From a virus, in the IMG/VR virus record IMGVR_UViG_3300025133_004720, positions 1 to 30,409 of that record: a stretch of 30,409 nucleotides of DNA; one strand, given 5' to 3'. The notes beneath the pieces are model-generated. The model was not told the origin of the DNA. It saw nothing but the letters and a program-made list of their open reading frames with translations, and did not search any database. Shown one piece after another: positions 925-29,513 of this stretch (its first letter is position 1; every line of letters starts with the position of its first letter). A program made the position numbers and the translations under genes.

Positions 925-926
925 AA

Positions 927-1670: not shown

Positions 1671-2001
1671 CGCTAGAGAAATTATTAACGACATCCTCGA
1701 TACAAATTTATATGATGCAAAAGATAAACTTGTATCTTCATTATATGCTAAAACAAGTGAACAACTTGAAACATACCGAGAAGATAATAGTGCAGATATT
1801 ATTCAGAATGTATCTGATATTGCAGAGGAATTGAGCAAAGAACAGAAAGCATATAAATCTTTCTTTACTGGTATGCTAAAGAAGTGGGATGTAGAATCGC
1901 CAGCCGATATCCCAGACGATAAGAAAGATGAATTCTTTAATGAAGTTAAAAAAGGATGGAAGAAAGATAAAGATAACGATTCTGAGGGAGAGGGAGAATA
2001 A
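1657..2001 (+). CDS. Small acidic prohead-core-like protein (gp68 position)
   Basis: A 114-residue charged protein. The start ATG at 1657 overlaps the previous gene but has a good ribosome site, AGGAG at 1643-1647. The C-terminal half contains a pattern, EEL-KEQKAYKSFFTGMLKKW followed by DVESPADIPDDKKDEFFNEV and KKGWK, that I associate with short C-terminal modules in other T4-like phage head and core proteins; this is recollection, not a search. The very end is acidic (DNDSEGEGE). It stops one base into gp21 (TAATG), a typical coupled junction. The position between portal and protease suggests an internal core component cleaved or expelled during maturation, as for T4 gp67/gp68. Confidence 0.72.
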   Translation: MNHDNAREIINDILDTNLYDAKDKLVSSLYAKTSEQLETYREDNSADIIQNVSDIAEELSKEQKAYKSFFTGMLKKWDVESPADIPDDKKDEFFNEVKKGWKKDKDNDSEGEGE

Positions 2002-2654
2002 TGAAACTAATCACAGAAACAAATCTTGATGGTATCGATATGATTACAGAAGCCAAAGAAGATGGTGGTAAGAATTACTACATCGAAGGTGTTTTTATGC
2101 AATCAGACACCAAAAATAAGAATGGTCGAGTATATCCTAAAGATATCCTGATGAATGAAGTTACACGATATGCAAAAGAGTATGTTGGTAACAAACGAGC
2201 ATTGGGTGAACTTGGACATCCAGAAGGACCAACAGTAAATTTAGAACGAGTATCCCATATTATTACAGAACTTCGTCAAGAAGAAAACAATATTCTAGGT
2301 AAAGCAAAAATTATGGACACCCCATACGGCAAGATTGTAAAAAATCTAATCGATGAAGGTGCTAAAATCGGTGTTTCATCTCGTGGTATGGGTTCACTTA
2401 AAAAAAATAAACAAGGTATAAATGAAGTACAGAACGATTTTATGCTTTCAGCCGTTGATATTGTTGCAGACCCTTCTGCACCCAGTGCATTTGTAAATGG
2501 TATTATGGAAGGTAAAGAGTGGGTTTGGGATAATGGTATTATCAAAGCCCAAGATGTAGAGAGTTATGAAACCCTAATCAACTCTGCTTCGTCAAAAGCA
2601 GACCTAGAGGAAAAGACCCTCTTTGCATTCGTTGATTTTTTGTCAAAATTATAG
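2001..2654 (+). CDS. 21: Prohead core serine protease gp21
   Basis: At 217 residues it is close to T4 gp21 (212). The motifs are those of the T4-type prohead protease: ELGHPEGPTVNLERVSHII with the candidate catalytic His at residue 73, and GVSSRGMGSL with the candidate nucleophile Ser at about 127, followed by an acidic residue in AVDIVADPSAPSAF (about 151-163). By family knowledge gp21 becomes active inside the prohead, cleaves the scaffold, core proteins and the N-terminal piece of gp23, mostly after (Leu/Ile)-X-Glu, then destroys itself. The start overlaps the upstream stop by one base. It lies directly before its substrates gp22 and gp23, as in T4. Confidence 0.95.
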   Translation: MKLITETNLDGIDMITEAKEDGGKNYYIEGVFMQSDTKNKNGRVYPKDILMNEVTRYAKEYVGNKRALGELGHPEGPTVNLERVSHIITELRQEENNILGKAKIMDTPYGKIVKNLIDEGAKIGVSSRGMGSLKKNKQGINEVQNDFMLSAVDIVADPSAPSAFVNGIMEGKEWVWDNGIIKAQDVESYETLINSASSKADLEEKTLFAFVDFLSKL

Positions 2655-2668
2655 ATATTATATATAAT
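2640..2668 (+). promoter_or_regulatory. Candidate sigma70-like promoter for gp22
   Basis: TTGTCA at 2640-2645 and TATAAT at 2663-2668 are separated by 17 bases, ahead of the gp22 gene. The -10 is embedded in a run TATATAATA (2661-2669) that could alternatively be a degenerate T4-type late box. The region is AT-rich, so chance similarity is possible. Confidence 0.45.
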
Positions 2669-2731
2669 AGAAATACAAGTTGTGCCGATTTCATTAGGCA
2701 TCAGAAATAAGAATACACAGGAGTATTAAAA

Positions 2732-3814
2732 ATGTCCGAAAAACTAGACCCAGTTCAAACTGCCCAAGCAATTTTTGAAGGCAAAGTGAACGACACAGAA
2801 CAAGAAGTTTCAGAAGACCTTCGTAAAGCACTAAAGGGTGCAGTTAAAGAGGGTCTTGATGAATTTGAATTTGAAGGTAAAACCTACAAAGTATCAGAAT
2901 TCAACGAAGAAGAATTAAAACTTGCAACAGGTGGTGACGATGTTCCCGCCGCAGATGCAGGAGAGAAAAAGAAACCAAAGAAAGCAAAAGACCCAAAACC
3001 AGAAGCATCTAGTGCATCTGCAAAAGAAGAATCGGTTAAACTTGATGTAGACGATATCGAAATCGTTGCTGAAGATTCAAGCGATGACTCAGATATGTCT
3101 GCTCTTTTCTCTGGTGAAGACCTATCAGAAGAATTCAAAACTAAAGCAACTACTATCTTTGAAGCGGCTGTTTCAGCACGAGTCAAAGATATTGCTTCTG
3201 AACTTGAAACAAGTGCAAACGAACAAGTTTCTGAAATTACTGAAGCACACAAAGCAGAACTCAGTGAATCTCTTGATGACTACCTCAACTATGTTGTATC
3301 GGAATGGGTTTCTGAAAACGAACTTGCAGTAGACCGTGGACTTAAAACTGAAATAACTGAAAGTTTTATGGGTGGACTCAAAACACTCTTTGAATCGCAC
3401 TTCATTGATATGCCAGAAGACAAGTACGACCTAGTTGCTGAACTAGAAGCAAAAGTTGAAGCACTTGAAGGTTCAATCAACGAAGAAATGCAAAAGAATG
3501 TTGAACTATCAAGCAATCTTTCAGAAGCAAAAGCAGAAGATATTCTTGCTGATATGTCTGAAGGTCTTGTAGCAACACAGGTTGAAAAGTTTGGAAAACT
3601 TGCAGAAGGTCTTGAGTATGATACACTAGACCAATATCGTGAGAAACTTGCAGTAATCAAAGAATCATACTTCGGTAAATCAAAATCATCTATGAATGTA
3701 ATTTCAGAAGATGAAATTGAAATTGAAGACACCACAGAAGATACAATTGCTGACCCACATATGAATCGATATTCTCAATATCTTTCAAAGCAAGGTAAGC
3801 ACAATAATTATTGA
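2732..3814 (+). CDS. 22: Prohead scaffold protein gp22
   Basis: A 360-residue, strongly acidic, helix-rich protein between the protease and the major capsid gene, the invariant position of T4 gene 22 (269 residues in T4). It has a basic Lys/Pro patch around residues 75-92 and long coiled-coil-like stretches (about 135-180 and 235-310) rich in Glu, Ala and Leu, including DLVAELEAKVEALEGSINEE. By family knowledge gp22 is the main component of the internal core on which the capsid shell assembles and it is digested by gp21; many Leu-X-Glu triplets are present as potential cut sites. The start is supported by AGGAG (about 2719-2723). Assignment rests on position and composition more than on conserved residues. 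Confidence 0.88.
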   Translation: MSEKLDPVQTAQAIFEGKVNDTEQEVSEDLRKALKGAVKEGLDEFEFEGKTYKVSEFNEEELKLATGGDDVPAADAGEKKKPKKAKDPKPEASSASAKEESVKLDVDDIEIVAEDSSDDSDMSALFSGEDLSEEFKTKATTIFEAAVSARVKDIASELETSANEQVSEITEAHKAELSESLDDYLNYVVSEWVSENELAVDRGLKTEITESFMGGLKTLFESHFIDMPEDKYDLVAELEAKVEALEGSINEEMQKNVELSSNLSEAKAEDILADMSEGLVATQVEKFGKLAEGLEYDTLDQYREKLAVIKESYFGKSKSSMNVISEDEIEIEDTTEDTIADPHMNRYSQYLSKQGKHNNY

Positions 3815-3826
3815 AATTTATAATAT

Positions 3827-3834
3827 TATAAATA
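3827..3834 (+). promoter_or_regulatory. T4-type late promoter for gp23 (TATAAATA)
   Basis: An exact TATAAATA octamer, the consensus recognised by gp55-RNA polymerase in T4, 63 bases before the gp23 start. The expected transcript start is near 3840, which would place the 3851-3867 hairpin near the 5' end of the capsid mRNA. Confidence 0.8.
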
Positions 3835-3850
3835 ATCTCGTTACAACAAC

Positions 3851-3867
3851 GCTAACACTGTGTTAGC
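3851..3867 (+). other. Stem-loop in the gp23 5' leader
   Basis: GCTAACA-CTG-TGTTAGC is a perfect 7-bp inverted repeat with a 3-base loop (8 bp if the loop shrinks to one base). It lies between the late box and the AAGGAG ribosome site (3885-3890). It has no downstream T-run, so it is not a terminator. A role in mRNA stability or translation control of the most abundant virion protein is inference. Confidence 0.65.
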
Positions 3868-3897
3868 ATAATTATAAATCCATTAAGGAGTAAGAAA

Positions 3898-5259
3898 ATG
3901 GAACAAAATGATATTACACAAGTTGCAGAGCAACTTAAAGAAAAATGGAATCCTGTATTAGAACATACAGACCTTCCAACAATTGGTGACAACTACAAAA
4001 AGAATGTCACTGCAATTCTGTTAGAAAATCAAGAACAAGCAATGCTTGTTGAAGCACCAACAAATGCAACTGGTTCAAATATTGATAATTGGGACCCAGT
4101 TTTAATTAGTCTTGTACGCCGTGCGATGCCTAACCTAATGGCATACGACATTGCGGGTGTTCAACCAATGACTGGCCCTACTGGTCTTATCTTTGCACTT
4201 AAAGCGAAGTACACTAGTCAAGGTGGAACAGAAGCGTGGCCGATGAACATCGATACTGACTTTGCGGGTGGTGCATCAGCAGATTATGCCGCTGATGACA
4301 ATGACCCACTAGCAGCCGGTGCAAATAACCAAGCAGCCGGTGCGACAATTGATACAATGCACGTTGGACACGCTATGTCCACTGCTACAGCAGAAGGTCT
4401 TGAAGGTACTGGTGCAAATGCATTCAACCAAATGGCATTCAGCATTGACAAGACATCCGTTGTTGCTAAATCTCGTGCGTTGAAAGCAGAATACACAACT
4501 GAACTCGCTCAAGACTTGAAAGCAGTTCACGGTTTAGATGCAGAAACAGAACTTGCTAACATTCTCTCGACTGAAATCCTTTCGGAAATCAACCGAGAAG
4601 TTGTCAAGACTATCTACAAAGGTGCTAAACTTGGTGCCCAACAACTTGACCTTGCATACAAAGGTGCGGGTGGTGCAACATTCGGTTTATCTGGTGGTTC
4701 AATCGGTGGTATCTACGACCTTGATGCTGATGCAGACGGTCGTTGGAGTGCTGAGAAGTTCCGTGGACTTTTGTTCCAACTCGAACGAGAAGCAAACCAA
4801 ATCGCTAAAGACACACGCCGTGGTAAAGGTAACCTAGTTATCTGCTCCTCAGATGTTGCTTCAGCACTCGCAATGGGTGGATTCCTACAACTCTCAGGTG
4901 GAGATGCAGGTAACCTAACCGTAGACGATACTGGTAACACATTCGTTGGTACACTCGGTGGTGGTAGAATGAAAGTATATGTTGACCCATATGCGACTAC
5001 TGACTACTGTTGCGTAGGTTACAAAGGTACTTCACAGTACGATGCAGGTTTATTCTACTGTCCATACGTTCCACTACAAATGGTTCGTGCGGTTGGTGAA
5101 AATTCCTTCCAACCTAAAATCGGTTTCAAGACTCGCTATGGTCTAGTGAACAACCCATTCGTTGGTACTGCATACGCTGACCCATCAAGCACTGCTTCTA
5201 ACCGCAGAAACCCATACTACAGAATCTTCCGTGTTGATAATCTTCACGGTGAAGGTTAA
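3898..5259 (+). CDS. 23: Major capsid protein gp23
   Basis: 453 residues (T4 gp23 has 521). The block LVRRAMPNLMAYDIAGVQPM then TGPTGLIFALKAKYTS is diagnostic for T4-family gp23, an HK97-fold protein forming the hexamers of the head. T4 gp23 loses an N-terminal propeptide after Ile-Ala-Glu; here Leu-Val-Glu at residues 50-52, in QAMLVEAPTNATG, fits the gp21 (Leu/Ile)-X-Glu rule and predicts a mature chain starting at Ala53. Start choice is supported by AAGGAG 7 bases upstream. It has its own late promoter and hairpin before it and a strong terminator after it, so it can be transcribed as a single-gene unit. Codons look more optimised (more C-ending) than in neighbouring genes, as expected of the most highly expressed protein. 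No separate vertex gene (gp24) is in the window. Confidence 0.97.
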   Translation: MEQNDITQVAEQLKEKWNPVLEHTDLPTIGDNYKKNVTAILLENQEQAMLVEAPTNATGSNIDNWDPVLISLVRRAMPNLMAYDIAGVQPMTGPTGLIFALKAKYTSQGGTEAWPMNIDTDFAGGASADYAADDNDPLAAGANNQAAGATIDTMHVGHAMSTATAEGLEGTGANAFNQMAFSIDKTSVVAKSRALKAEYTTELAQDLKAVHGLDAETELANILSTEILSEINREVVKTIYKGAKLGAQQLDLAYKGAGGATFGLSGGSIGGIYDLDADADGRWSAEKFRGLLFQLEREANQIAKDTRRGKGNLVICSSDVASALAMGGFLQLSGGDAGNLTVDDTGNTFVGTLGGGRMKVYVDPYATTDYCCVGYKGTSQYDAGLFYCPYVPLQMVRAVGENSFQPKIGFKTRYGLVNNPFVGTAYADPSSTASNRRNPYYRIFRVDNLHGEG

Positions 5260-5291
5260 TTGTTAGTATAGTTTAAGTTATATTTTTGATT

Positions 5292-5318
5292 AAGGGTGTC
5301 CTTCGGGACACCCTTTTT
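5292..5318 (+). terminator. Rho-independent terminator after gp23
   Basis: AAGGGTGTCC (5292-5301), loop TTCG (5302-5305), GGACACCCTT (5306-5315), with the T-run extending to 5318. A 10-bp stem with a UUCG tetraloop and U-tract is an ideal intrinsic terminator. It separates gp23 from the next late promoter at 5325. Confidence 0.93.
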
Positions 5319-5324
5319 CATTTG

Positions 5325-5332
5325 TATAAATA
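5325..5332 (+). promoter_or_regulatory. T4-type late promoter for the tail-tube gene (TATAAATA)
   Basis: Exact TATAAATA, just 3' of the terminator and 21 bases before the next ATG. The predicted start near 5338 is immediately upstream of the ribosome site GGAG (5341-5344), so the leader would be minimal. Confidence 0.8.
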
Positions 5333-5353
5333 TATTAACAGGAGATTTGTATT

Positions 5354-5908
5354 ATGTCTACAGGTATTACAGGTTCTGACTTGCCCGGCGTTCCAACATC
5401 ACTAGGTGTAAGTCCAGACAAAAGACAACCCACTAACACAAACCAAGTTGGTTCTACTAACTATCGGTTTTTCTTGCACCGTGCCCCAGCAGTGACTTAT
5501 TTTTGTCAATCAGTTACTTTGCCCGGCGTAGATATTGATGCACTTGAACAGGAAACTTTCTTTGCATCTGCAAAACAGCCTGGATATAAACCAAACTTCA
5601 GTGACTTTACAATCAAATTCTTAATTGATGAAGACCTACAGAACTGGCGAGAAATTTATGATTGGATGAAAAGTTACAGTGGATTCGAGGATTTTGATGG
5701 ATTCACTTCCCCAGAAGCCGACCATTTCTCTGATGCAACCCTAATGATTCTGACAAGTGGTATGAATGCGAATCTAGAAGTAACATTCAAAAACTGTTTT
5801 CCTACTTCATTAGGTAGTATTGAGTTTGATTCTAGTATTGATGATATTGAAGCCCTTACCACCGATATTACTTTCGCCTTTGACAGTTACTCAATAAATA
5901 AACTATAA
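5354..5908 (+). CDS. Tail-tube-fold protein (gp19-like family)
   Basis: 184 residues (T4 gp19 tube protein has 163). The pattern FCQSVTLPGVDIDALEQETF near 50-70, an LQNWREIYDWMKS helix near 95-107, and the C-terminal block NCFPTSLGSIEFDSSIDD then a TTDITFAFDSYSI strand match the tube-protein fold shared by T4 gp19, gp48 and gp54. The likely role is a ring-forming component of the inner tail tube or a tube-end protein. The equivalent slot in related marine phages is sometimes labelled gp3 (tail completion), so tube proper versus tube terminator is unresolved. Transcribed from its own late promoter, consistent with a structural role. The first 35 residues look disordered (Pro, Thr, Asn, Gly rich). 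Confidence 0.8.
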   Translation: MSTGITGSDLPGVPTSLGVSPDKRQPTNTNQVGSTNYRFFLHRAPAVTYFCQSVTLPGVDIDALEQETFFASAKQPGYKPNFSDFTIKFLIDEDLQNWREIYDWMKSYSGFEDFDGFTSPEADHFSDATLMILTSGMNANLEVTFKNCFPTSLGSIEFDSSIDDIEALTTDITFAFDSYSINKL

Positions 5909-5913
5909 AGTTT

Positions 5914-5941
5914 TTGACTTCTGCTGATATGGCAGTATAAT
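5914..5941 (+). promoter_or_regulatory. Sigma70-like promoter for uvsY, predicted leaderless
   Basis: TTGACT (5914-5919), 16-base spacer, TATAAT (5936-5941). The uvsY ATG begins at 5949, only 7 bases after the -10 box, where transcription would start. No Shine-Dalgarno sequence precedes the ATG. Confidence 0.8.
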
Positions 5942-5948
5942 ATACACT

Positions 5949-6386
5949 ATGAAACTAACTGATATACGAAAAATGGCAGAACAAGATGCGGTGATTGATG
6001 AAACAGAACTCGGAAGCGAGTCAATCAAAATTCCACAACTCCACAACAAATACCTAGTGCTAATGCAGGATGAGAAATTCGCATTACAACAAATGAATAT
6101 CCAATTCTATCAGATGAAAAGATTGAAGTGGGAATACTATACAGGTAAAATGGACAAAGAAACTCTTGATGAGTTGGGGTGGCAGCCGTTCCAACTCAAT
6201 GTTCTCAAGAAAGATTTGGATTTGTATTTTGATGCAGATGAAGATTTAGTAGAACTTAAAGGTAAAATCATTTATCAAGATTCTAAAATAGATTTTCTTG
6301 AGAATACACTCAAAACTCTAAACAACAGAAATTGGGTAATCAGAAACGCAATTGAGTGGAATAAATTTACTCAGGGTGGTTTGTAA
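5949..6386 (+). CDS. uvsY: Recombination mediator protein UvsY
   Basis: 145 residues (T4 UvsY has 137). Recognisable blocks are RLKWEYYTGKMDKETLDELG (about 58-77) and the C-terminal helix around ADEDLVELKGKIIYQDSKID followed by NWVIRNAIEWNKF, which align with the T4 protein end to end. By family knowledge UvsY is a hexameric mediator that loads the UvsX recombinase onto gp32-coated single-stranded DNA and stabilises the filament. It is immediately followed by uvsW, the same order as in T4. The promoter directly abuts the start codon, which suggests a leaderless message. Confidence 0.88.
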   Translation: MKLTDIRKMAEQDAVIDETELGSESIKIPQLHNKYLVLMQDEKFALQQMNIQFYQMKRLKWEYYTGKMDKETLDELGWQPFQLNVLKKDLDLYFDADEDLVELKGKIIYQDSKIDFLENTLKTLNNRNWVIRNAIEWNKFTQGGL

Positions 6387-6390
6387 AATA

Positions 6391-7887
6391 GTGATATTGG
6401 TTGAGAAAAAGAATTCAGTGCATATGAAAGTATATGCAGAGGACAGAGGAATAGAGAAAGAACTGAATTCCTTTTTCACCTTCAAAGTTCCCGGCCACGA
6501 GTATATGCCCTCATATAGAAACAGAATGTGGGATGGGAATATAAAATTATACAGTGTACATTCTAAAGAACTCTATACAGGGCTATATGACCACCTAGAG
6601 AGGTTTTGTGCTGATAGAGGGTATCCCCTATCTGGGTGGTCACCAAAACCCTCACGAGCCGTGGATGATGCTCTAATAAGCAAGTTTATAGACAACCATC
6701 TTAAACCATCGGTAAATGGACAGAGAATCCACGCACGAGAGCATCAGGTAGATGCGGTTCATCACTCAATAAACAGCGATAGAACGCTCCTGCTCTCTCC
6801 TACTGGGTCAGGGAAGTCGCTAATGATTTACTCTCTAATGAGATACTATAATGACATATTAGACCCCAATAAGAAGATTCTAATCATTGTTCCGACTACC
6901 TCACTGGTATCACAGATGTATAGTGACTTTGCAGATTATTCTAGTAACGATGGTGTGTGGAATGTTTCTCAGGAATGTCACAAAGTAACGGCAGGGAAAG
7001 ACAAACTAAATCCAAATAAACGAATCGTGATTTCTACTTGGCAATCTATTCATAAACTGGGAAAGAAATATTTTGATAATTTTGGTGCGGTGTTTGGGGA
7101 TGAATGTCATCTATTCAAGGCGAAATCCCTTACAACAATTATGACCAAACTAGAAAATTGCAAATATAGAATCGGAACAACAGGAACTCTTGATGGAACA
7201 CAATGTCATAAATTAGTCATTGAGGGATTGTTTGGTTCTGTATATAAAGTAACTACTACAAAGAAACTTATTGAGAAAGAAGTATTATCCGATTTTGAAA
7301 TTGATTGTATTGTTCTGAAACATTCAGAAGATTTCAAAAAGAAATATAAAAGAGTTACATATCAGGAAGAAATTGATGCAATAGTAGGATACGACAAGAG
7401 AAATGAGTTTATTGCAGATTTGACAAAATCACTGAAAGGTAATTCTTTGGTGTTATTTCAATATGTAGAAAAACACGGTAAGCCGTTATATGATTTAATA
7501 AAAGAGAAATGTCCAGAAAAAGATATATACTTTATACACGGTGGTACAGAATCAGAACTTCGTGAAAAGATTAGGAAACTAATGGAGAGGAAAGATAATG
7601 CAGTTATCGTTGCATCATATGGAACTTTTTCAACAGGCATCTCTATTAGGAAGTTGCACAACATCGTGTTTGCTTCCCCTTCAAAATCAAGAATCCGTGT
7701 ATTACAATCAATCGGTAGACAACTTCGGAAATCCGAACACAAAGAAAAAGCACGACTCTACGACATCTCAGATGATATCTGTTGGAAAAAATATAAAAAC
7801 CACACTTACCGACACTATGAAGAAAGATTGAAATTATATAGAACAGAAAAGTTTTCTCACCGAACAATTCATATAAATATAGAGTAA
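6391..7887 (+). CDS. uvsW: ATP-dependent helicase UvsW
   Basis: I choose GTG at 6391, giving 498 residues (T4 UvsW has 503); from there the N-terminus aligns residue for residue with T4 (length to the NSFFTF motif is identical), whereas earlier in-frame codons overlap uvsY. An N-terminal DNA-binding domain (about 1-85, with FKVPGHEYMPSYRNRMWDGN) precedes a superfamily 2 core: Walker A SPTGSGKS at 136-143, IIVPTTSLVSQM, the DECH box at 237-240, GTTGTLDG, then ASYGTFSTGISIRKLHNIVF and QSIGRQLRKS motif VI. By family knowledge UvsW unwinds R-loops and branched DNA, helping the switch from origin to recombination-dependent replication and fork restart. The end carries the late box for the next gene. 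Confidence 0.95.
   Translation: MILVEKKNSVHMKVYAEDRGIEKELNSFFTFKVPGHEYMPSYRNRMWDGNIKLYSVHSKELYTGLYDHLERFCADRGYPLSGWSPKPSRAVDDALISKFIDNHLKPSVNGQRIHAREHQVDAVHHSINSDRTLLLSPTGSGKSLMIYSLMRYYNDILDPNKKILIIVPTTSLVSQMYSDFADYSSNDGVWNVSQECHKVTAGKDKLNPNKRIVISTWQSIHKLGKKYFDNFGAVFGDECHLFKAKSLTTIMTKLENCKYRIGTTGTLDGTQCHKLVIEGLFGSVYKVTTTKKLIEKEVLSDFEIDCIVLKHSEDFKKKYKRVTYQEEIDAIVGYDKRNEFIADLTKSLKGNSLVLFQYVEKHGKPLYDLIKEKCPEKDIYFIHGGTESELREKIRKLMERKDNAVIVASYGTFSTGISIRKLHNIVFASPSKSRIRVLQSIGRQLRKSEHKEKARLYDISDDICWKKYKNHTYRHYEERLKLYRTEKFSHRTIHINIE
7872..7879 (+). promoter_or_regulatory. T4-type late promoter inside the 3' end of uvsW (TATAAATA)
   Basis: Exact TATAAATA 19 bases before the next start codon; the predicted transcript would begin at about 7885, right at the AAGGAG ribosome site (7886-7891). 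The same compact box-plus-ribosome-site design is seen before the tail-tube gene. Confidence 0.75.
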
Positions 7888-7898
7888 GGAGTTTTTAT

Positions 7899-8552
7899 AT
7901 GTCTAAAAACAATATTTACCGATTGTTCAGATTAACAAATGGTGACAATCTAGTTGCAAAGATACATCGTTCCACAGACGATAAATATTATCTTGAGCGA
8001 CCAATGAGAATAACATCTATTATAGCCAATGACCCAATTGACCCCACAGGGATGTTCAAAAGGGAATTAGTTTACCTAGTCCCTTGGATAGAACACACAA
8101 ACGATAATGTTGTTCCAATTAAAAAATCAGTTGTAGTGTCTATGTGTATGGCTGATACAGAAATCAGCACAGCATATGATATTCAGAAAGAACGAGAAGA
8201 TGTAGGCGGAATGGGTGAAGAATCTTCTGATGCTCCTTTTCCAGAACAACCAACACATCCAAATAATAAGGATATTGATGAACTTCTTGGAAATATTATG
8301 TTTGAAGATGGAGAATTTATTCCAGAAAATAAAAATATAACTGATATGTCAATTAAAGATATTGTTAATAACATCCTCAATGACATCGTTGCAAATGCAC
8401 ATCAACCACCAGAAGAAGAATGGGACGAAAATACAATTGACAAAACTCGTGATGACTATGGTTGTCACTTAGAAGATTGGTCACCTTATATCGAAGATTA
8501 CACGAAAGAACCGCCTCCACACACGGAAGATGATACAAAAAAAGATTCCTAA
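7899..8552 (+). CDS. Sm-like-domain late protein of unknown function
   Basis: 217 residues. The first ~85 residues, with LTNGDNLVAKIHRSTDDKYY and LERPMRI, have the look of a small Sm/Hfq-like beta barrel found in many phage hypotheticals (inference from pattern only). After about residue 100 the protein is acidic, low in hydrophobics and probably disordered, with Pro-rich acidic segments (PPEEEWDEN, EPPPHTEDDTKKDS) and one helical stretch near 120-165. It has a dedicated TATAAATA late promoter and a strong ribosome site, so it should be expressed at high level late, suggesting a virion or assembly role. It is flanked by recombination genes that are not late-promoter driven. No function is assigned. 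Confidence 0.75.
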   Translation: MSKNNIYRLFRLTNGDNLVAKIHRSTDDKYYLERPMRITSIIANDPIDPTGMFKRELVYLVPWIEHTNDNVVPIKKSVVVSMCMADTEISTAYDIQKEREDVGGMGEESSDAPFPEQPTHPNNKDIDELLGNIMFEDGEFIPENKNITDMSIKDIVNNILNDIVANAHQPPEEEWDENTIDKTRDDYGCHLEDWSPYIEDYTKEPPPHTEDDTKKDS

Positions 8553-8559
8553 GAATCTT
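8542..8559 (+). other. Small inverted repeat spanning a stop codon
   Basis: AAGATTC (8542-8548), loop CTAA (8549-8552) and GAATCTT (8553-8559); the stop codon TAA of the Sm-like gene is in the loop. It is AT-rich and not followed by a T-run, so at best a weak transcript-end structure. The remaining 175 bases to the gp55 gene hold only the gp55 promoter region. Confidence 0.4.
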
Positions 8560-8677
8560 GAAACTGTCATCCTTTCTTATATATTATTAAATACCCCCTG
8601 TTGAATCCAGACATTATATGTATAAAACAGCCATTAATTTGTCAAGTCATTTTAGAAAATAATTTTAAATATTTTTG

Positions 8678-8715
8678 TTGATTTATTAATTTCTTCTGTT
8701 ATACTTTCGTATAAC
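8678..8715 (+). promoter_or_regulatory. gp55 promoter with overlapping inverted repeat
   Basis: TTGATT (8678-8683), 16-base spacer, TATACT (8700-8705) with an extended -10 TG at 8697-8698. The -10 lies inside a perfect inverted repeat, GTTATAC (8698-8704), TTTC, GTATAAC (8709-8715). The palindrome could be an operator for a repressor or form a hairpin at the mRNA 5' end. Confidence 0.65.
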
Positions 8716-8734
8716 ACAAAAGGAAATAAATATT

Positions 8735-9316
8735 GTGAGTAAAAAGAAAAAGAAAAGAACAAAACAAGCACCAGAGCATTATGTAAATAACAAAGAATTT
8801 TATATTGCTTTATGTGAATGGAAAGACCAACTAGCAGAAGCAGAAGAATGTGGCGACCCAAAACCACCAATATCAGATTATATTGGTGAATGTTTTTTAA
8901 AGATGGCTACAGGAATTGCACGAAGACCCAATTTTAATAACTACGAATTTAAAGAAGATATGATTGGGGATGCTATTGAGAACTGTATTCTTTATGCTCA
9001 TAATTTTAAAAAAGAAGGAAAGAATCCTTTTGCATATTTTACACAAATGATGTACTATGCTTTTATACGAAGAATACAAAAAGAAAAAAAGCAATTATAT
9101 GTGAAGTATAAATTAGCCGAAACAATGGAAGATTTTCAAAACTATATTTCTTGGGATGATACCGACCCTCACGAGAAATTATCTCTTAATAGGAAGTTTG
9201 GAGTTTCGGAAAATGATATAGAAAATTTTAAGAGTGGAAGCAAGAAGAAGACCGCAAAGAAGAAGACCACAAAGAAGAAGAAAGACACAGGTGGTACATT
9301 GGATGATATATTATGA
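8735..9316 (+). CDS. 55: Late-transcription sigma factor gp55
   Basis: 193 residues, GTG start with AGGA 8-12 bases upstream (T4 gp55 has 185). The core FKEDMIGDAIENCILYAHNF and PFAYFTQMMYYAFIRRIQKE is the conserved sigma2-like region of T4-family gp55. By family knowledge gp55 replaces sigma70 on host RNA polymerase, recognises TATAAATA, and is activated by the gp45 sliding clamp with co-activator gp33 (not in this window). Odd here is a Lys-rich linker at about 167-185 (KKKTAKKKTTKKKK) leading to a short tail GGTLDDIL; T4 gp55 carries its clamp-binding motif at the C-terminus, so LDDIL may be the equivalent. The last codons overlap gp47 (ATGA). Confidence 0.93.
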   Translation: MSKKKKKRTKQAPEHYVNNKEFYIALCEWKDQLAEAEECGDPKPPISDYIGECFLKMATGIARRPNFNNYEFKEDMIGDAIENCILYAHNFKKEGKNPFAYFTQMMYYAFIRRIQKEKKQLYVKYKLAETMEDFQNYISWDDTDPHEKLSLNRKFGVSENDIENFKSGSKKKTAKKKTTKKKKDTGGTLDDIL

Positions 9317-10377
9317 GTAAGGTGGCTTTAGTAACGGATACTCATTTTGGTGCAAGGAACGATTCTCAATTATTTCTAGATTACTTTTCGGAATTCTTTG
9401 AAGAACAATTTTTCCCTACATTAAGAAAACACGACATCGACACTGTGATACACGCAGGCGATTTAGTAGACAGACGAAAGTATATTAATTTTAATACATT
9501 ATCTACTATTCGTAACAAGTTTATGCAACCATTGAAGGATATGGGAGTTACTGTTCATTGTATATTAGGAAATCACGACACATATTATAAGAACACTAAC
9601 GATTTAAATTCATTGAAGGAATTATTTGTAGACAAGTACGATAATTTTATTTTATATGAGAAACCTACGGTCATTGACCTTGATGGGTTTGAGATATCGT
9701 TGCTTCCGTGGGTGAACAGAGAAAATAAAGAAAAATCATTAGAGTTTATCAAGAACACTAAAACAGATTGGTTGATTGGTCATCTTGAACTTACAGGATA
9801 TGAAGTGATGCGAGGCATCAAATATGAAGATGGAATGAACCCAGATATTTTCAAGAAGTTTGAACAGGTAATCTCTGGACATTTTCATTGCAAGCAGGAC
9901 AAAGGTAATATTCTTTATCTTGGAACACCATATCAAATGACATTTTCTTGTGTAGGTGAACCAAAAGGATTTTGGATTCTTGATACCGAAACACGAGAGA
10001 TGGAATATATTCAGAACAAGAAAAAGAAGTTCTTTAGTATTGTTTACAACGATGAAGAAAATACATACGACAAGTTTATATCACGAACCCACAAAGAATA
10101 TAAAGATGCATATGTAAAAATTTATGTGACACACAAAGAGAAGCCATACATCCTTGATAAAGTAATCGACACTTTATATCAAAGTGGTGTATTTAGTTTG
10201 AATGTTGTGGACAATATGGACGATACATTTAACTTTGATGATGATAAGAAAGCCGATATGACCAAATCAACCCTAGAATTGTTGTTTGAGGAGATAGACA
10301 ACAACGAAACATTGAAGAATAAAAAAGAAGTAAAAGGTTTGATAAAAGAGTTGTATATGGAGAGTTTGAGTGTATAA
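9313..10377 (+). CDS. 47: Recombination endonuclease subunit gp47 (Mre11-like)
   Basis: 354 residues (T4 gp47 has 339). The metallophosphoesterase motifs are all present: DTH at residues 9-11, GDLVDRR at 49-55, GNHD at 86-89, GH at 156-157 and GHFH at 189-192, which together bind two metal ions. By family knowledge gp47 is the nuclease partner of gp46, resecting double-strand ends to give 3' single strands for UvsX and helping degrade host DNA. It overlaps gp55 by ATGA and precedes gp46 by 12 bases, so they form one operon, although gp46 also has its own promoter within the end of this gene. Confidence 0.96.
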   Translation: MSKVALVTDTHFGARNDSQLFLDYFSEFFEEQFFPTLRKHDIDTVIHAGDLVDRRKYINFNTLSTIRNKFMQPLKDMGVTVHCILGNHDTYYKNTNDLNSLKELFVDKYDNFILYEKPTVIDLDGFEISLLPWVNRENKEKSLEFIKNTKTDWLIGHLELTGYEVMRGIKYEDGMNPDIFKKFEQVISGHFHCKQDKGNILYLGTPYQMTFSCVGEPKGFWILDTETREMEYIQNKKKKFFSIVYNDEENTYDKFISRTHKEYKDAYVKIYVTHKEKPYILDKVIDTLYQSGVFSLNVVDNMDDTFNFDDDKKADMTKSTLELLFEEIDNNETLKNKKEVKGLIKELYMESLSV

Positions 10378-10378
10378 T
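10351..10378 (+). promoter_or_regulatory. Candidate sigma70-like promoter for gp46
   Basis: TTGTAT (10351-10356), 16-base spacer, TATAAT (10373-10378), overlapping the end of gp47. The ATG of gp46 is at 10390, so the leader would be about 5 bases, and no Shine-Dalgarno sequence is visible. Confidence 0.55.
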
Positions 10379-10389
10379 AGTAAGTAATT

Positions 10390-12111
10390 ATGTTAGTATT
10401 TAAAACGGTGAAGTATAAGAACTTCTTGAGTACAGGTAACACCCCAACAGAGGTGTATCTAAACAAATATAATACGGTACTTGTATCTGGTGAGAACGGT
10501 GCAGGGAAATCAACAATGCTCGATGCATTGACTTTTGTGTTGTTTGGTAAATCATTTCGTGGTATCAACATCAAGGGACTGACTAACAGCATCAACGAAA
10601 AGGACTGCGTTGTTGAGGTAGAGTTTTCATACAACAAAGATGTATATAAAGTTATTCGTGGACAGAAACCAAAGATATTTGAAATCTATAAGAACGGAAA
10701 TCTCGTTCCACAGAATGCAACTGTAAGAGATTATCAACAGATTCTTGAAGAACAAATTTTAAAGATGTCTTATAAGGCATTTTGTCAAGTAGTCATCTTG
10801 GGTTCATCTAACTATATTCCTTTTATGAAACTATCGAATGCAGATAGACGGAAGATTGTTGAGGATTTACTTGACATTAATATCTTTTCTACTATGGGGA
10901 ATATGTTGAAGTCGAGAATGTCAGAGAACAAAGACAAGTTACAACTCATTTCGACAAGATTGACAGTCCTCATTACACAAATTGACAGTCACAAAAATCT
11001 CATTGAACGAATGGAAAATAAGGCAAAAGAATCTGTTTCTAGCCACAAAGAGGATTTACAATCTACTAACAAACAGATTCAAGAACTCACTGGTGAAGTG
11101 AATAATTGGCAGAGAGAAGTTGATATTCTATTAGAGAAGGTGAAGGATGAAAGTTCGTTATCGTCTAAACTGATTAAAGCAGAAGGTCTTGAGAAACAAC
11201 TGAAAACAAACATCAAGAAGGTCATCAAAGATATCTCATTTTATACCGATAATGATTCCTGTCCTATTTGCGACCAAAGCATCACAGATGAACACAAAGA
11301 ATCTGAAGTATCAAAGAAGAATGAAAAGATGGAAGAACTTAACGATGCGGTGAATAAGATTGGTGAAACCATATCAGAAACAGAGGACACACTAACAGAA
11401 ATTAATTCTGTTCTGTCTGATATTAGTACACTAGAAAAAAAGATTTCAAACAACAATTCATCCATTTCCGCCAGCAATCGGTATATCACAAAATTAAATA
11501 GTGATATTCAGGAGATTGCGGAAGACCGTGAAGAACTAGACAATGAACGAGAACGATTAGAAGAAATAGAGGCAGAATATCAGAAGATAGATAAGAAGAA
11601 AGAAGGATTAGTAGAAACCAGAACGGTTATGGAAGATACATCTTCTCTAATCAAAGAAGGCGGAATCAAAACAAAAATCATCAGGTACTATTTACCAGTG
11701 ATGAACAAATTAATAAACAACTATCTTGCATCTATGGATTTCTTTTGTCAATTTACACTGGATGAAGATTTCTCTGAAACAATCAAGAGTCGATATCGAG
11801 ATGATTTTACCTATTACAATTTCAGCGAAGGCGAACGATTGCGTATTGACCTTTCTTTGCTTTTGGTGTGGCGTGAAATTGCAAGACAAAAGAACAGCGT
11901 TAATTGTAATCTACTAATATTGGATGAAGTATTTGATTCTAGTTTAGATATAGGCGGAACAGAGGAGTTTCTAAAGATTCTAAACACATTCGGTGAGAGA
12001 GCAAATGTATTTGTTATTACACATAAAGCAGACCAGTTAATGGATAGATTTAAGAATCATATTCACTTTGAAAAGAAAAACAATTTCTCAAGGATTATAA
12101 GTGCAACATAA
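10390..12111 (+). CDS. 46: Recombination endonuclease subunit gp46 (Rad50/SMC-like ATPase)
   Basis: 573 residues (T4 gp46 has 560). Walker A GENGAGKST lies at residues 34-42. Long coiled-coil arms (about 175-290 and 300-420) flank a zinc hook CPIC at about 291-294, through which two molecules dimerise. Near the C-terminus come the ABC signature NFSEGERLRIDL and Walker B LLILDEVFDSSLD, then the His-switch region VFVITHKAD. By family knowledge gp46 with gp47 forms the phage Mre11-Rad50 complex for end resection and recombination-dependent replication. The start lacks a ribosome site, suggesting initiation on a near-leaderless transcript or coupling to gp47. The 3' end overlaps the methyltransferase gene by 11 bases. 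Confidence 0.96.
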   Translation: MLVFKTVKYKNFLSTGNTPTEVYLNKYNTVLVSGENGAGKSTMLDALTFVLFGKSFRGINIKGLTNSINEKDCVVEVEFSYNKDVYKVIRGQKPKIFEIYKNGNLVPQNATVRDYQQILEEQILKMSYKAFCQVVILGSSNYIPFMKLSNADRRKIVEDLLDINIFSTMGNMLKSRMSENKDKLQLISTRLTVLITQIDSHKNLIERMENKAKESVSSHKEDLQSTNKQIQELTGEVNNWQREVDILLEKVKDESSLSSKLIKAEGLEKQLKTNIKKVIKDISFYTDNDSCPICDQSITDEHKESEVSKKNEKMEELNDAVNKIGETISETEDTLTEINSVLSDISTLEKKISNNNSSISASNRYITKLNSDIQEIAEDREELDNERERLEEIEAEYQKIDKKKEGLVETRTVMEDTSSLIKEGGIKTKIIRYYLPVMNKLINNYLASMDFFCQFTLDEDFSETIKSRYRDDFTYYNFSEGERLRIDLSLLLVWREIARQKNSVNCNLLILDEVFDSSLDIGGTEEFLKILNTFGERANVFVITHKADQLMDRFKNHIHFEKKNNFSRIISAT

Positions 12112-13717
12112 TATTATGAAAACTGAAACACAACAATTTTATGAACGAAACAATTATGTAATCAATTCAGAAATGAATTGCTATTACCAAGACCTTGCTA
12201 ATATGACCCCAGACGAATTTCGTGAATGGGTAATCAAGATGCGAAAGACAGTAAAAGAATCTTGGGACTTGTTCGGAAACCCACCCCGCATCGGTAAAGA
12301 CGAACAAGCACTCGTTGAGCAATTCAATAAGATGGCAGAGTTTCCTATTCACGAGTTTACATTCACCGATGAACTTTCTGATGTAGACAATGATGTTATT
12401 ATAAACAAATCACGACTTGGTGGTGAAGCAGACCAATGGTTTAGTAATATGATGAAGACACGAATTAACTATACAGAGAAAGACACAGGATATTCCATTT
12501 ACGATTTGTTTGCCGATGACCGACATCTTGAGAAAATGGTAAAGGGAAGTATGCGACATTTCCGCCGAGATAGTTTATATGAACACGCAAAATCTGCAAT
12601 TCGTAATAACGACAAGTACGCAGTGGTAAGTGTAGATAATGGCAAAGAATGGATGGAAGCATTTCATAATAACCCAAAGATTTTTAAAGGTTATGATTTT
12701 ATGCTTGAAGAAACTAAGATGCGGGAAGGTGTAAACAGTGGATATTATCAGGTAGAACAATCTGATATTCTTCAGTTATCTAGACAACAAGTATTGGATT
12801 ATAAAGAAAAAGGATGGTTGGAGTATCGCAATCATTCTACATTCGATATAGATAATATGGGTGACAACAAAGCATACAACATTCGTGTGTATAAAAAAGA
12901 CAAAAAGATGTTTCCAAGAGGATTTTCGTCTTTTCGCATAGGATATATCCAAGTAGCCGTTAATTTCCCATCGATGACTGCTAAATACTTATATGAAAGA
13001 TTCACCGAAGATTTCAAAGACCAAGAAGTTATTAACATCTATGACCCATCGGCTGGTTGGGGTGGTCGTATACTTGGCGCTATGGCTGTTAGGGATGACC
13101 GCAGGATTCATTATATTGGTACTGACCCCAATACTGACAATTTTAGTGATGATGGTGGTGACAACAAGTATGCTTATCTCGCAGATTTTTACAATACCAA
13201 AACTTATCGTGGAAATCCAATCTTTTCCGAAACGAATACTTATCATATTTTCAAAGAAGGGTCAGAGGAAATCGGAAAACACCCAGAATTTCAACAGTAC
13301 AGAGGAAAAATCGACCTTATCTTTACTTCACCACCTTATTTCAACAGAGAGGCGTATAGCGAAGACAAAACTCAGTCGTACAAAAAATATGGGTCATCCT
13401 ACGAATCTTGGAGAGATGGATTCCTCAGAGGAACACTAGAAACTTGTGTTGAATATTTAAAACCAGACAGGTATTTGCTATGGAACATAGCCGATTTAAA
13501 GATAGGTAAAAACTTCTTACCACTTGAACAAGATTCAAGAGATATTCTCGAATCTTTAGGAATGGAATATTGCTATACACTTAAAATGGCGATGGAGTCA
13601 ATGCCCGGCCAAAATAGATTGGACGAGAATGGCGTTCCAATGTGCAAAAACTTCTGCAAAGTAAATGGCAAGTATATGAAGTATGAACCTGTATTTGTTT
13701 TCAGAAAATTGTCTTGA
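12101..13717 (+). CDS. DNA methyltransferase (TSPPY class) with a large N-terminal region
   Basis: 538 residues from GTG 12101, which has an AAGGA ribosome site 6 bases upstream; an ATG at 12116 is possible but has no ribosome site. The C-terminal part is an S-adenosylmethionine-dependent methyltransferase: motif I IYDPSAGWGGR (313-323) binds the cofactor, and motif IV FTSPPYF (408-414) is the catalytic signature, of the type most common in N4-cytosine enzymes. Motif I precedes motif IV, and YIGTDPN follows as motif II. The first ~290 residues contain no motif I recognise and might provide DNA recognition. No cognate restriction nuclease is adjacent, so it is an orphan enzyme, perhaps protecting phage DNA or marking it. 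It sits between gp46 and rnh, where T4 has only small genes. Confidence 0.88.
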   Translation: MQHNIMKTETQQFYERNNYVINSEMNCYYQDLANMTPDEFREWVIKMRKTVKESWDLFGNPPRIGKDEQALVEQFNKMAEFPIHEFTFTDELSDVDNDVIINKSRLGGEADQWFSNMMKTRINYTEKDTGYSIYDLFADDRHLEKMVKGSMRHFRRDSLYEHAKSAIRNNDKYAVVSVDNGKEWMEAFHNNPKIFKGYDFMLEETKMREGVNSGYYQVEQSDILQLSRQQVLDYKEKGWLEYRNHSTFDIDNMGDNKAYNIRVYKKDKKMFPRGFSSFRIGYIQVAVNFPSMTAKYLYERFTEDFKDQEVINIYDPSAGWGGRILGAMAVRDDRRIHYIGTDPNTDNFSDDGGDNKYAYLADFYNTKTYRGNPIFSETNTYHIFKEGSEEIGKHPEFQQYRGKIDLIFTSPPYFNREAYSEDKTQSYKKYGSSYESWRDGFLRGTLETCVEYLKPDRYLLWNIADLKIGKNFLPLEQDSRDILESLGMEYCYTLKMAMESMPGQNRLDENGVPMCKNFCKVNGKYMKYEPVFVFRKLS

Positions 13718-13743
13718 CAAATTGATTTTTTATGTCATACTAT
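13714..13743 (+). promoter_or_regulatory. Sigma70-like promoter for rnh, overlapping a stop codon
   Basis: TTGACA (13714-13719), 18-base spacer, TACTAT (13738-13743; a TATAAA at 13741-13746 is an alternative). The -35 contains the TGA stop of the methyltransferase. The rnh ATG at 13749 coincides with the expected transcript start, predicting a leaderless mRNA. Confidence 0.7.
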
Positions 13744-13748
13744 AAATT

Positions 13749-14609
13749 ATGATTTTACTAGATACAAACCAAACAATGATTGCAACCCTCTTTTCTATGT
13801 ACAAGAAAAATGAGTTGGTCAATGTAACCGAAGATGATATCCGCAAAGCAACTTTGCTTGGTATTAGCCGATTTAATAATCAATTCAAAGACAAGTATGG
13901 TGAAATAGTTTTGTGCTATGACACTGGTAACTACTGGCGGAAAGATATATTCCCAGAATATAAAGCAAGCAGAAAGAAAGCACAGAAAAGTGATGGTGTA
14001 GATTGGGGAAGAATCTATGGTTACTTTGGAACTGTTCGGGAAGAAATTAAGGAAGTATTTCCGTTTAAATCGATGTACTTAAATCATCTTGAAGCAGATG
14101 ATATTATTTCTGTGTTGGTGGAGAATTTATATGATAAGGAAAATATACTCATCGTATCGTCCGACAAAGATTTCCAACAACTGCAACGATTCCCTAATGT
14201 TCAACAATACAGTCCCAATAAAAAGAGTATGATTGTGTGCGAAGACCCAGAAGCATTTCTTGTAGAACATATGGTCAAGGGTGATGTATCTGATGGTATT
14301 CCCAATGTATTGTCCGATGACGATACCTTCATAGACCCAGACAAAAAGCAAACCACAATGACCAAGAAACGACTGAACGAAGCAATAGGACACTATACAT
14401 CGGGTGCATTAAATTTTAATGAAACACAAGTTAAATATATCAGGAATTGGATTAGAAATAAAACAATGATTGATATGAAAGAAATCCCACAAGAACATAA
14501 AGACAGAATACTTGATGAGTGGGTAAAACCAATGGTTGGTGATAACTCACAAGTATTTGATTATATGGTCGGTAATCGACTAGGAGATATGGTAGACATT
14601 GTAATATGA
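13749..14609 (+). CDS. rnh: Ribonuclease H / 5'-3' exonuclease (T4 Rnh family)
   Basis: 286 residues (T4 RNase H has 305). It is a FEN-1-like PIN-domain nuclease: acidic metal ligands at Asp5 (MILLDTNQ), Asp58 (CYDTGNYWRKDIFPEYK), the LEADDII cluster at 114-120, SSDKDFQQL at 137-145 and GDVSDGIPN at 178-186. By family knowledge it removes RNA primers and adjacent DNA from lagging-strand fragments at the T4 fork. It lies directly upstream of clamp and clamp-loader genes, fitting a replication operon. No ribosome site precedes the ATG. It ends ATGA with the next small gene. Confidence 0.93.
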   Translation: MILLDTNQTMIATLFSMYKKNELVNVTEDDIRKATLLGISRFNNQFKDKYGEIVLCYDTGNYWRKDIFPEYKASRKKAQKSDGVDWGRIYGYFGTVREEIKEVFPFKSMYLNHLEADDIISVLVENLYDKENILIVSSDKDFQQLQRFPNVQQYSPNKKSMIVCEDPEAFLVEHMVKGDVSDGIPNVLSDDDTFIDPDKKQTTMTKKRLNEAIGHYTSGALNFNETQVKYIRNWIRNKTMIDMKEIPQEHKDRILDEWVKPMVGDNSQVFDYMVGNRLGDMVDIVI

Positions 14610-14797
14610 AGCGGTCAAATAACAACAATAAAGGTGGAGATAATAAAAAACGATATTGTGGTAGTGGAAAAGCAAAAAAAACCAAAAAAAGAAAATTACG
14701 ACACAAAGATAAACGAGCAATTAAAGATATGATTGATAATGTCAAACCAGATGAATATGACAAATATTCTGATTATATAGGATGGGATAATGATTGA
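14606..14797 (+). CDS. Small highly basic protein of unknown function
   Basis: 63 residues, start overlapping the rnh stop (ATGA). The first 38 residues are dominated by Lys, Arg and Asn (KRSNNNNKGGDNKKRYCGSG, then KAKKTKKRKLRHKDKR), followed by an acidic, aromatic C-terminus (KPDEYDKYSDYIGWDND). Such composition suggests nucleic-acid binding with a separate protein-contact tail, but no family is recognised. Translational coupling and tight fit between rnh and gp45 support it being real. Confidence 0.65.
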   Translation: MKRSNNNNKGGDNKKRYCGSGKAKKTKKRKLRHKDKRAIKDMIDNVKPDEYDKYSDYIGWDND

Positions 14798-14821
14798 CAA
14801 GAGAAGCCCCTATGATACAAT
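14794..14821 (+). promoter_or_regulatory. Sigma70-like promoter for gp45, overlapping a stop codon
   Basis: TTGACA (14794-14799), 16-base spacer, TACAAT (14816-14821). The TGA stop of the small basic gene is inside the -35. Here a conventional leader of about 27 bases with GGAG precedes the gp45 ATG. Confidence 0.7.
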
Positions 14822-14854
14822 TACAATACATAAACCCAAACAACGGAGAATATT

Positions 14855-16503: not shown

Positions 16504-16772
16504 TTAAACCACTAAATGATAATGTAGTAATTATTTACGAAGAAGTAAAAGAAAAGACAACCGACTCTGGTATTATCGTAACAGGTAGTGCCGTAGAGGA
16601 CAGAAGTAAGCCCGCCATAGCAATTGTTGCAGGAGTAGGTGATGCTGTCACCGTTGGATTAAATGTAGGTGATGTTGTTTTGTGGGACAGAGTTGCTAAA
16701 GGCGTATGCGAAGGTTGCATTATTGTACACGAATCCACAATTCTTGCGGTTATTGAAAATGAAACTGAGTGA
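16500..16772 (+). CDS. GroES-like co-chaperonin
   Basis: 90 residues with the cpn10 pattern: MIKPLNDNVVI at the N-terminus, a mobile-loop-like EKTTDSGIIVTGSAVEDRSK (about 18-37), then GVGDAVTVGLNVGDVVLWDR and a C-terminal ESTILAVIE strand. The IIV hydrophobic tripeptide in the loop is the GroEL-binding signature. T4 uses gp31, a distant cpn10, to help GroEL fold gp23; this protein is much closer in sequence pattern to bacterial GroES. Its location is odd: between the two clamp-loader subunit genes, overlapping gp44 (ATGA) and gp62 (14 bases). A capsid-folding role is inferred from T4. Confidence 0.85.
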   Translation: MIKPLNDNVVIIYEEVKEKTTDSGIIVTGSAVEDRSKPAIAIVAGVGDAVTVGLNVGDVVLWDRVAKGVCEGCIIVHESTILAVIENETE

Positions 16773-17163: not shown

Positions 17164-17221
17164 ATGTTTCTATTATATACATAATTATGAAAGTGAACCA
17201 TAAAGAAAGATGGAGTATATA

Positions 17222-17629
17222 ATGGAAAGAGAACGATTAACAGCCGATGACTTAGTGGAAGTTAAACTTGCAGAGGATGAGGACTTCCTAAAAGTAAAAG
17301 AAACCCTAACACGAATTGGGGTTTCTTCTCGCAAAGATAATAAATTATATCAATCTTGTCATATTCTTCATAAACGAGGAAAGTATTATATTGTACATTT
17401 CAAAGAATTATTCGGACTTGATGGTCTTCCATCCAATATGACCGATAATGATATTGCACGAAGAAATACAATCATCAGTTTATTAGAAGAATGGGAATTG
17501 ATAGAACTTGCAGATGAAAATTGGGTGTGCGAACCCGCCGCATCTGTGGGTCAAATAAAAATTATTCCTCACAAGGAAAAGAGTAATTGGGAACTTGTAC
17601 CCAAATACCACATAGGAAAGCGTAACTAA
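17222..17629 (+). CDS. regA: Translational repressor RegA
   Basis: 135 residues from ATG 17222, chosen over ATG 17210 because GGAG (17212-17215) sits 6 bases upstream and would be lost otherwise. T4 RegA has 122 residues. The blocks EDFLKVKETLTRIGVSSRKD, LYQSCHILHKRGKYYIVHFK, RRNTIISLLEEWELIE and WELVPKYHIGKRN match T4 RegA through its length. By family knowledge RegA binds ribosome-binding sites of early mRNAs (including gp44, gp45 and its own) and shuts off translation. The T4 gene order gp62-regA is kept. The 58 bases upstream hold no convincing promoter. Confidence 0.95.
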   Translation: MERERLTADDLVEVKLAEDEDFLKVKETLTRIGVSSRKDNKLYQSCHILHKRGKYYIVHFKELFGLDGLPSNMTDNDIARRNTIISLLEEWELIELADENWVCEPAASVGQIKIIPHKEKSNWELVPKYHIGKRN

Positions 17630-17650
17630 ATATAGTATGGAGATTACATT

Positions 17651-19461: not shown

Positions 19462-19462
19462 A

Positions 19463-29485: not shown

Positions 29486-29513
29486 TTGACTTTTGAATTC
29501 TTTGATGTATAAT
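29486..29513 (+). promoter_or_regulatory. Sigma70-like promoter for dut
   Basis: TTGACT (29486-29491), 16-base spacer, TATAAT (29508-29513), starting directly after the TGA of the beta-helix gene. A normal leader with AAGGAG (29523-29528) leads to ATG 29538. This marks the switch from late structural genes back to early-type metabolism genes. Confidence 0.8.

Follow-up and report, generated by a model that had tools for sequence, protein, structure and literature searches.

A predicted leaderless uvsY mRNA in a T4-like phage, and repeated switching between Shine-Dalgarno-led and leaderless-type starts among its relatives

Introduction

The cI repressor mRNA of phage lambda is leaderless, and leaderless mRNAs are often poorly translated in E. 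coli-type hosts. The cI and cro mRNAs of phage PY54, mapped by RACE, are described as leaderless (PMC4488713), and phage transcripts in general have been remarked to be often so (PMC5312081). In Deinococcus-Thermus and in TA-led bacterial genes a -10 element is reported approximately 6-7 bp before the open reading frame with no Shine-Dalgarno (SD) sequence (PMC12340547, PMC3160421); in bacterial leaderless genes a -10-like signal, counted from its second base, is placed approximately 12 bp upstream of the start (PMC3160421). The ribosome is described as starting on such mRNAs in its 70S form, at the 5'-terminal AUG (PMC9031893).

The uvsY gene of T4 is transcribed from a MotA-dependent middle promoter. 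For the T4-like phage Melnitz, early promoters of the sigma70 type are described, and middle promoters are given as not identified (PMC9004378). Among the papers covered by a literature search, none combines uvsY with leaderless mRNA. Leaderless mRNAs themselves are already known; the new point made here is the apparent repeated switching of core genes of T4-like phages between SD-led and leaderless-type starts.

Results

The uvsY locus

The DNA analysed is a virus record of a T4-like phage with a length of 30,409 bases; the whole of it is referred to here as the window. In order, the genes around uvsY are head genes, the major capsid gene (3898), the tail tube gene, uvsY, uvsW, a small gene, gp55 (8735), gp47, gp46 (10390), a methyltransferase-like gene, rnh (13749), gp45, gp44, a Cpn10-like gene, gp62 and regA. 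The Cpn10/GroES-like gene (PF00166) between gp44 and gp62 occupies 16500-16772, a tail protein of 1358 aa with long collagen-like GAT repeats is encoded at 24264-28340, and a strong terminator-like hairpin is located between the capsid and tail tube genes at 5292-5315. A tRNA scan and an Rfam scan of the window returned no matches. The features of the uvsY region, with two further genes, are as follows.

5354..5908, + strand: tail tube gene upstream of uvsY (PHROG 45, 5e-38)
5914..5919, + strand: -35 element TTGACT of the uvsY promoter; relatives keep TTGACA, TTGACT or TTGATT
5936..5941, + strand: -10 element TATAAT of the uvsY promoter, after a 16-nt spacer (sequence and promoter scan)
5942..5948, + strand: 7-nt stretch atacact from the -10 element to the ATG (spacing read from the sequence)
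5949..6386, + strand: uvsY, recombination mediator, 145 aa, ATG start without an SD sequence (PHROG 231, 1e-41; PF11056, 2.6e-31)
13749..14609, + strand: rnh-like exonuclease gene, leaderless-type start with moderate support (PHROG 107, 2.4e-47)
17210..17629, + strand: regA, translational repressor gene (PF01818, 1.3e-42)

A preliminary description of this DNA had placed TTGACT-N16-TATAAT 7 bases before the uvsY ATG and had found no SD sequence. Both observations were confirmed, with the hexamers at 5914-5919 and 5936-5941 and the ATG at 5949, and with no GGAG, GAGG, AGGA or AAGG between 4 and 20 nt upstream of the ATG. The promoter matches the sigma70 consensus at 11 of 12 positions with a spacing of 16 nt (range allowed, 16-18 nt), and the 7 nt between the -10 box and the start codon fall within the 6-9 nt taken as leaderless-type. 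The second base of the -10 element is at -12, as in bacterial leaderless genes. The start codon is secure, since the family alignment begins at the first residues of UvsY (residues 1-143 align to positions 2-141 of the PHROG 231 profile), and SD-led relatives begin the protein at the same residue as the window. Given where transcription usually starts in sigma70 promoters, an ATG 6 nt after the -10 element has its A at the start site. As the spacing in the window is 7 nt, and not the modal 6, a leader of 1-3 nt is possible; the transcription start is predicted within 5946-5950, with the A of the ATG at 5949 as the best guess.

Promoters were called by consensus matching alone. Promoter-like sites showed no excess over shuffled sequence, either in bases 1-16000 (52 against 60.1 expected) or in 15000-30409 (51 against 53.2), and matches with three or fewer mismatches in the window numbered 71 against 68.4. 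Exact copies of TTGACT-N16-TATAAT occur in the window at 5914 and 29486 only. By window statistics alone the uvsY promoter proves little; what stands above chance is its position relative to the ATG, repeated in relatives.

The uvsY upstream region in relatives

Three queries of IMG/VR (best 80 per query), together with a gp46 search, supplied the UvsY loci. Loci were dropped where the match started after residue 3, where no start codon was nearby or where fewer than 45 nt lay upstream, and the 266 loci left gave 158 uvsY upstreams distinct by their last 45 nt, the window counting with L081 and L001 as one. Among the matches listed, a promoter with at least 10 of 12 consensus bases was present in the last 80 nt of 101 of the 158, against 8.86 in shuffles. 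The distance from the -10 element to the ATG is bimodal, being either 6-7 nt without an SD sequence or approximately 16-33 nt, mostly with one. Among the upstreams listed, a distance of 6-7 nt was found in 22 of the 158, against 0.36 in shuffles, and a distance of exactly 6 nt in 18, against 0.16. SD-like words, which have a chance level of 7.6% in these upstreams, were found in 0 of 25 listed at 5-9 nt and in 58 of 69 at 15-40 nt (Fisher 1.5e-14, a value that overstates independence because the rows are related; the UvsY tree described below is the guard against this). The start codon is ATG in 22 of 22 leaderless-type uvsY genes and the preceding base a pyrimidine in all 22 (T in 18, C in 4); since T also precedes the ATG in 56 of the 69 far-class upstreams, the pyrimidine is consistent with a leaderless start rather than diagnostic of one.

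Between lineages, spacer and flanks are unrelated, with the -35, the -10 and the spacing to the ATG kept. The closest relative among the matches listed (L002, 96% aa identity) keeps both promoter and spacing, and relatives at 74% have TTGACA-N18-TATAAT, 6 nt and ATG, with a spacer unrelated to that of the window. The same layout in unrelated sequence recurs at 51% (L140), 48% (L101) and 42% (L007). Conversely, in three relatives at 57-59% (L090, L089 and L098) the same type of promoter is located 31-33 nt upstream, with an SD sequence in the leader. The sister loci L187 and L234 show the difference: both have TTGACC-N16-TATGAT, followed in L187 by 6 nt and the ATG without a leader, and in L234 by 17 nt that include GGAGA, 11 nt more than in its sister. 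Lineages L009-L050, and the cyanophage-like L051 and following, have uvsY with neither an SD sequence nor a convincing nearby promoter, so that a missing SD sequence alone is not diagnostic of a leaderless start.

Switching on the UvsY tree

A tree was built from the UvsY proteins of 157 of the 158 upstreams, one protein shorter than 125 aa having been dropped, and removal of near-copies (>95% identical and in the same state) left 118 non-redundant rows. Among the matches listed, these comprise 22 leaderless-type rows, 56 with promoter, leader and SD sequence, 21 with an SD sequence only and 19 with neither, so that most (96 of 118) do not have the leaderless layout. The preliminary description had called leaderless initiation unusual for a T4-like phage. 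This agrees with seven isolates (Mosig, HTVC008M, Melnitz, Cr30, phiM12, DLP6 and Syn9), where 0 of 7 uvsY upstreams had a leaderless-type start, and among the isolates examined there is therefore no cultured model for uvsY; among the IMG/VR sequences, however, 22 of the 118 rows have one.

On the tree, 11 changes in the leaderless-type label are required, against 20.4 with shuffled labels. At least 6 of these changes are forced by starred (strongly supported) branches, one of which carries the L187/L234 pair, and 6 is the more cautious count, because the tree comes from an alignment of only 144 columns and leaves 38 of its 114 inner branches open. Gain and loss of the leaderless-type uvsY start are indistinguishable on this tree.

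Other genes in the window and in relatives

Further promoter-like features of the window are as follows.

8678..8705, + strand: gp55 promoter TTGATT-N16-TATACT, upstream of the GTG at 8735; leader with AAAGGAAA (promoter scan)
10373..10378, + strand: TATAAT 11 nt before gp46, no good -35; weak (sequence)
13714..13741, + strand: rnh promoter TTGACA-N16-CATACT, 7 nt before the ATG (promoter scan)
14794..14821, + strand: gp45 promoter TTGACA-N16-TACAAT, upstream of the ATG at 14855; leader with CGGAGA
29486..29513, + strand: dut promoter with hexamers identical to those of uvsY, TTGACT-N16-TATAAT, upstream of the ATG at 29538; the leader holds AAAGGAGA

The sigma70-type promoters of gp55, gp45 and dut have SD-led leaders, and form an internal contrast to uvsY. 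A stretch resembling AGCC(CC)..TGG recurs between the -35 and -10 elements in L003/L170, L157, L098, the gp46 promoter of L087, the gp55 promoters of L138 and L125, and the gp45 promoter of the window.

Although gp55 is SD-led in the window, many relatives are leaderless-type instead. The 214 matched gp55 loci supplied 137 distinct starts that had at least 50 nt of upstream sequence, the start being taken, independently of the promoter, as the ATG nearest the aligned start (or another start codon where there was none). A promoter with at least 9 of 12 consensus bases lies at 5-9 nt in 32 of the 137, and 27 of these 32 are without an SD sequence, whereas with the promoter at 18-33 nt an SD sequence is present in 37 of 44. 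The near class holds five SD-like words, four of which are a GAGG located before the predicted start site. Sequence comparison thus suggests that two core genes, uvsY and gp55, switch between SD-led and leaderless-type forms with a sigma70-type promoter retained. In L127, L129, L131, L132 and L139 the gp55 promoter lies 6 nt before a GTG and not an ATG, an unusual leaderless-type layout. The nearest cultured case is gp55 of Pelagibacter phage Mosig (L316:7041), where TTGACA-N17-TATAGT ends 9 nt before the ATG; as a GAGG precedes the predicted start site, this mRNA may be nearly leaderless, with a predicted leader of approximately 3 nt.

The preliminary description had assigned the uvsY design to rnh and, nearly so, to gp46. 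For rnh this was partly borne out, by a perfect -35, the 7-nt spacing and a TG before the -10 element, but the -10 itself matches at only 4 of 6 positions. TTGACA-N16-CATACT with 7 nt is kept in L083 (81% aa identity), and L096 and L368-L370 have TTGACT-N17-TATAAT or TACAAT, 6 nt and ATG, with TTGATT-N16-TATACT and 6 nt in L102. No such rnh layout was found in L087, L088, L089, L090, L095, L098, L084 and L085, and a search with the L096 protein gave only 3 rnh loci. At gp46 a TATAAT is present 11 nt before the ATG, but the element 16 nt upstream of that TATAAT (TTGTAT) matches the -35 at 3 of 6 positions, and the promoter is missed by the 9-of-12 scan; the sole convincing gp46 case is the contig L087/L003, a 77% relative, with TTGACC-N17-TATAAT, 8 nt and ATG. 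The broader proposal, that several recombination and replication genes have leaderless starts, thus finds support in relatives for uvsY, gp55 and rnh, and for gp46, gp43 and others in single contigs or small groups only. Within the window uvsY alone passes the strict test (1 of 31 called genes), with rnh a good second.

Among 974 distinct promoter-like sites, in a sample centred on the uvsY/gp55 genome region, an ATG opening an ORF of at least 60 aa follows at 6 nt in 37 cases and at 7 nt in 14, against approximately 5 at neighbouring distances; the 5-9 nt set is mostly uvsY (25) and gp55 (20). Six larger contigs and the window were scanned piecewise, their genes being called by a simple method. 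Of 839 genes 19 pass, with 1-5 per record; a few of the 19, at 10 of 12 bases, are probably due to chance and two have SD-like words, including gp45 in G006. Among those passing are the uvsY genes of the window, G001 and G002. G005 adds its DNA polymerase and a CobS-like ATPase, and G005 and G006 each have CobT-like peptidases and PHROG 11903 proteins; the CobS-like and CobT-like names are taken in part from PHROG descriptions. Leaderless-type T4-type DNA polymerase genes were also seen at L366:11193 (identified by PHROG) and in L437 and L481 (identified by eye), and TATAAT lies 5 nt before the ATG of genes named by eye as MazG-like and QueE-like, in L010, L036 and L044 and in L021 and L028.

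An exact scan of IMG/VR for TTGACT-N16-TATAAT-N6-ATGAA found at least 120 stretches, and a control with 11 nt in place of 6 found 44 in all. Among the 6-nt matches listed, 88 of 110 distinct ones open an ORF of at least 60 aa (7 of the 88 with SD-like words), against 10 of 29 distinct matches in the control, which indicates that leaderless-type starts are a wider habit of environmental phages and not specific to T4-like ones. Comparison of the 88 listed ORFs with 15 window proteins identified one UvsY and one dut only.

Discussion

An ATG at a fixed, short distance from a promoter, with no SD sequence, recurs at uvsY across relatives and has been switched repeatedly. It is likely that uvsY in the window has its own sigma70-type promoter and a leaderless mRNA with SD-independent initiation at the 5' AUG, the leader having been gained or lost repeatedly in both uvsY and gp55. 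The leaderless character predicted by the preliminary description is well supported by the comparison of relatives, by the cluster at 6-7 nt and by the tree. RNA polymerase of the host, carrying its main sigma factor, would start at the AUG or within approximately three bases of it. That start at or next to the AUG follows from the -10 spacing; for the later steps we infer that the ribosome, probably in its 70S form, would initiate on the 5'-terminal AUG without an SD sequence. In both uvsY and gp55 an SD leader of 10-30 nt would have come or gone repeatedly while the same type of promoter was kept.

The tail tube gene ends 40 nt upstream of uvsY and the scan lists no terminator-like site between them, so that late RNA should run through uvsY. 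It is conceivable, but improbable, that the promoter is real and that UvsY is nevertheless made mostly from such longer transcripts, on which ribosomes would initiate without an SD sequence because the region is AU-rich and unstructured. The lineages with neither an SD sequence nor a convincing nearby promoter would fit this account, which however leaves unexplained the clustering of the -10-to-ATG distance at exactly 6 nt, the absence of SD sequences in just the near class, and the same split in gp55. Very unlikely is a gp55-dependent late promoter giving a leader of approximately 30-45 nt without an SD sequence. Sequences close to TATAAAT, the late motif described in PMC9004378 and PMC3037559, can be seen upstream of uvsY (TATAAAG at 5904-5910 and AATAAATA at 5893-5900), but neither supplies an SD sequence; AATAAATA reads AATAAACA in the closest relative among the matches listed, and the TATAAA stretch, which covers the final codon and the stop of the tail tube gene, is missing from other lineages of the leaderless type, for example L184-L186.

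The preliminary description had suggested that leaderless initiation evolved as an escape from translational repression by RegA. A regA gene is indeed present in the window, and RegA sites are described as lying over the AUG or just 5' of it (PMC3014915); but all 7 contigs searched carry regA irrespective of the state of uvsY, which is leaderless-type in G000-G002 (the window being G000) and SD-led in G003-G006. Known sites overlap the AUG itself (PMC3014915), and uvsY is not among the RegA targets named in the literature consulted. Nor do the two uvsY classes differ in how closely the 5 bases before the ATG resemble the 5' half of the gene 44 operator, and the operator word of T4 gene 44, AAATTATGATT, has its sole exact copy in the window at the start of rnh (13744-13754), itself leaderless-type. 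The operator word at rnh neither requires nor excludes RegA control, and there is no positive evidence for an escape, which we consider highly improbable. The chance is slighter still that leader loss, by removing GGAG, shields the mRNA from a RegB-like nuclease: T4 RegB is described as cutting early mRNAs at intergenic GGAG sites (PMC3014915), but no RegB match was found in the 7 contigs, a result tempered by a control that was also without a match.

If uvsY is read from a leaderless mRNA of its own, as favoured above, UvsY would probably be made mainly from own-promoter transcripts, since read-through mRNA lacks a uvsY ribosome site; the leaderless start would then lock UvsY synthesis to its own promoter, insulated from read-through. 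More tentatively, and with some doubt, initiation mode may be an evolvable switch in T4-like phages, whereby deletion or restoration of an SD leader of 10-30 nt, with the sigma70 promoter left unchanged, makes uvsY, gp55 and a few further genes of control or replication promoter-locked, isolated from read-through and tied to the 70S ribosomes and initiation factors available in the infected cell. With uvsY and the late sigma gene in both forms in close relatives, and with no fewer than 6 switches, perhaps 11, on the UvsY tree, these phages provide a natural experiment, and paired SD-led and leaderless orthologues allow the role of the leader to be compared. For annotation, core phage genes without an SD sequence are not necessarily mis-called.

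Among known systems, uvsY of T4 resembles the locus described here in being an orthologue with its own promoter, but has a MotA box where the window has a sigma70 -35. By reading the sequence, no MotA box (TGCTTtA, at approximately -30) was found at the proper place upstream of uvsY, and MotA (PF09114) was matched in 0 of 7 contigs, the control being without a match too. Marine T4-like phages (Melnitz and cyanophages) are described as having consensus hexamers in early promoters, as here; the account of Melnitz (PMC9004378), in the portion available, does not discuss promoters abutting start codons. In Deinococcus-Thermus, -10-adjacent open reading frames are a genome-wide habit, whereas here they amount to 1-5 genes per phage contig, with many others SD-led. 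The likeness to PY54 cI and cro and to lambda cI lies in a promoter directly upstream of the start codon and a predicted mRNA that begins with AUG. Those are switch genes of temperate phages, whereas the genes concerned here are a core recombination mediator and a late sigma factor; and unlike the PY54 and lambda repressors, the T4-like orthologues, whose start is predicted here from sequence, alternate with an SD-led form.
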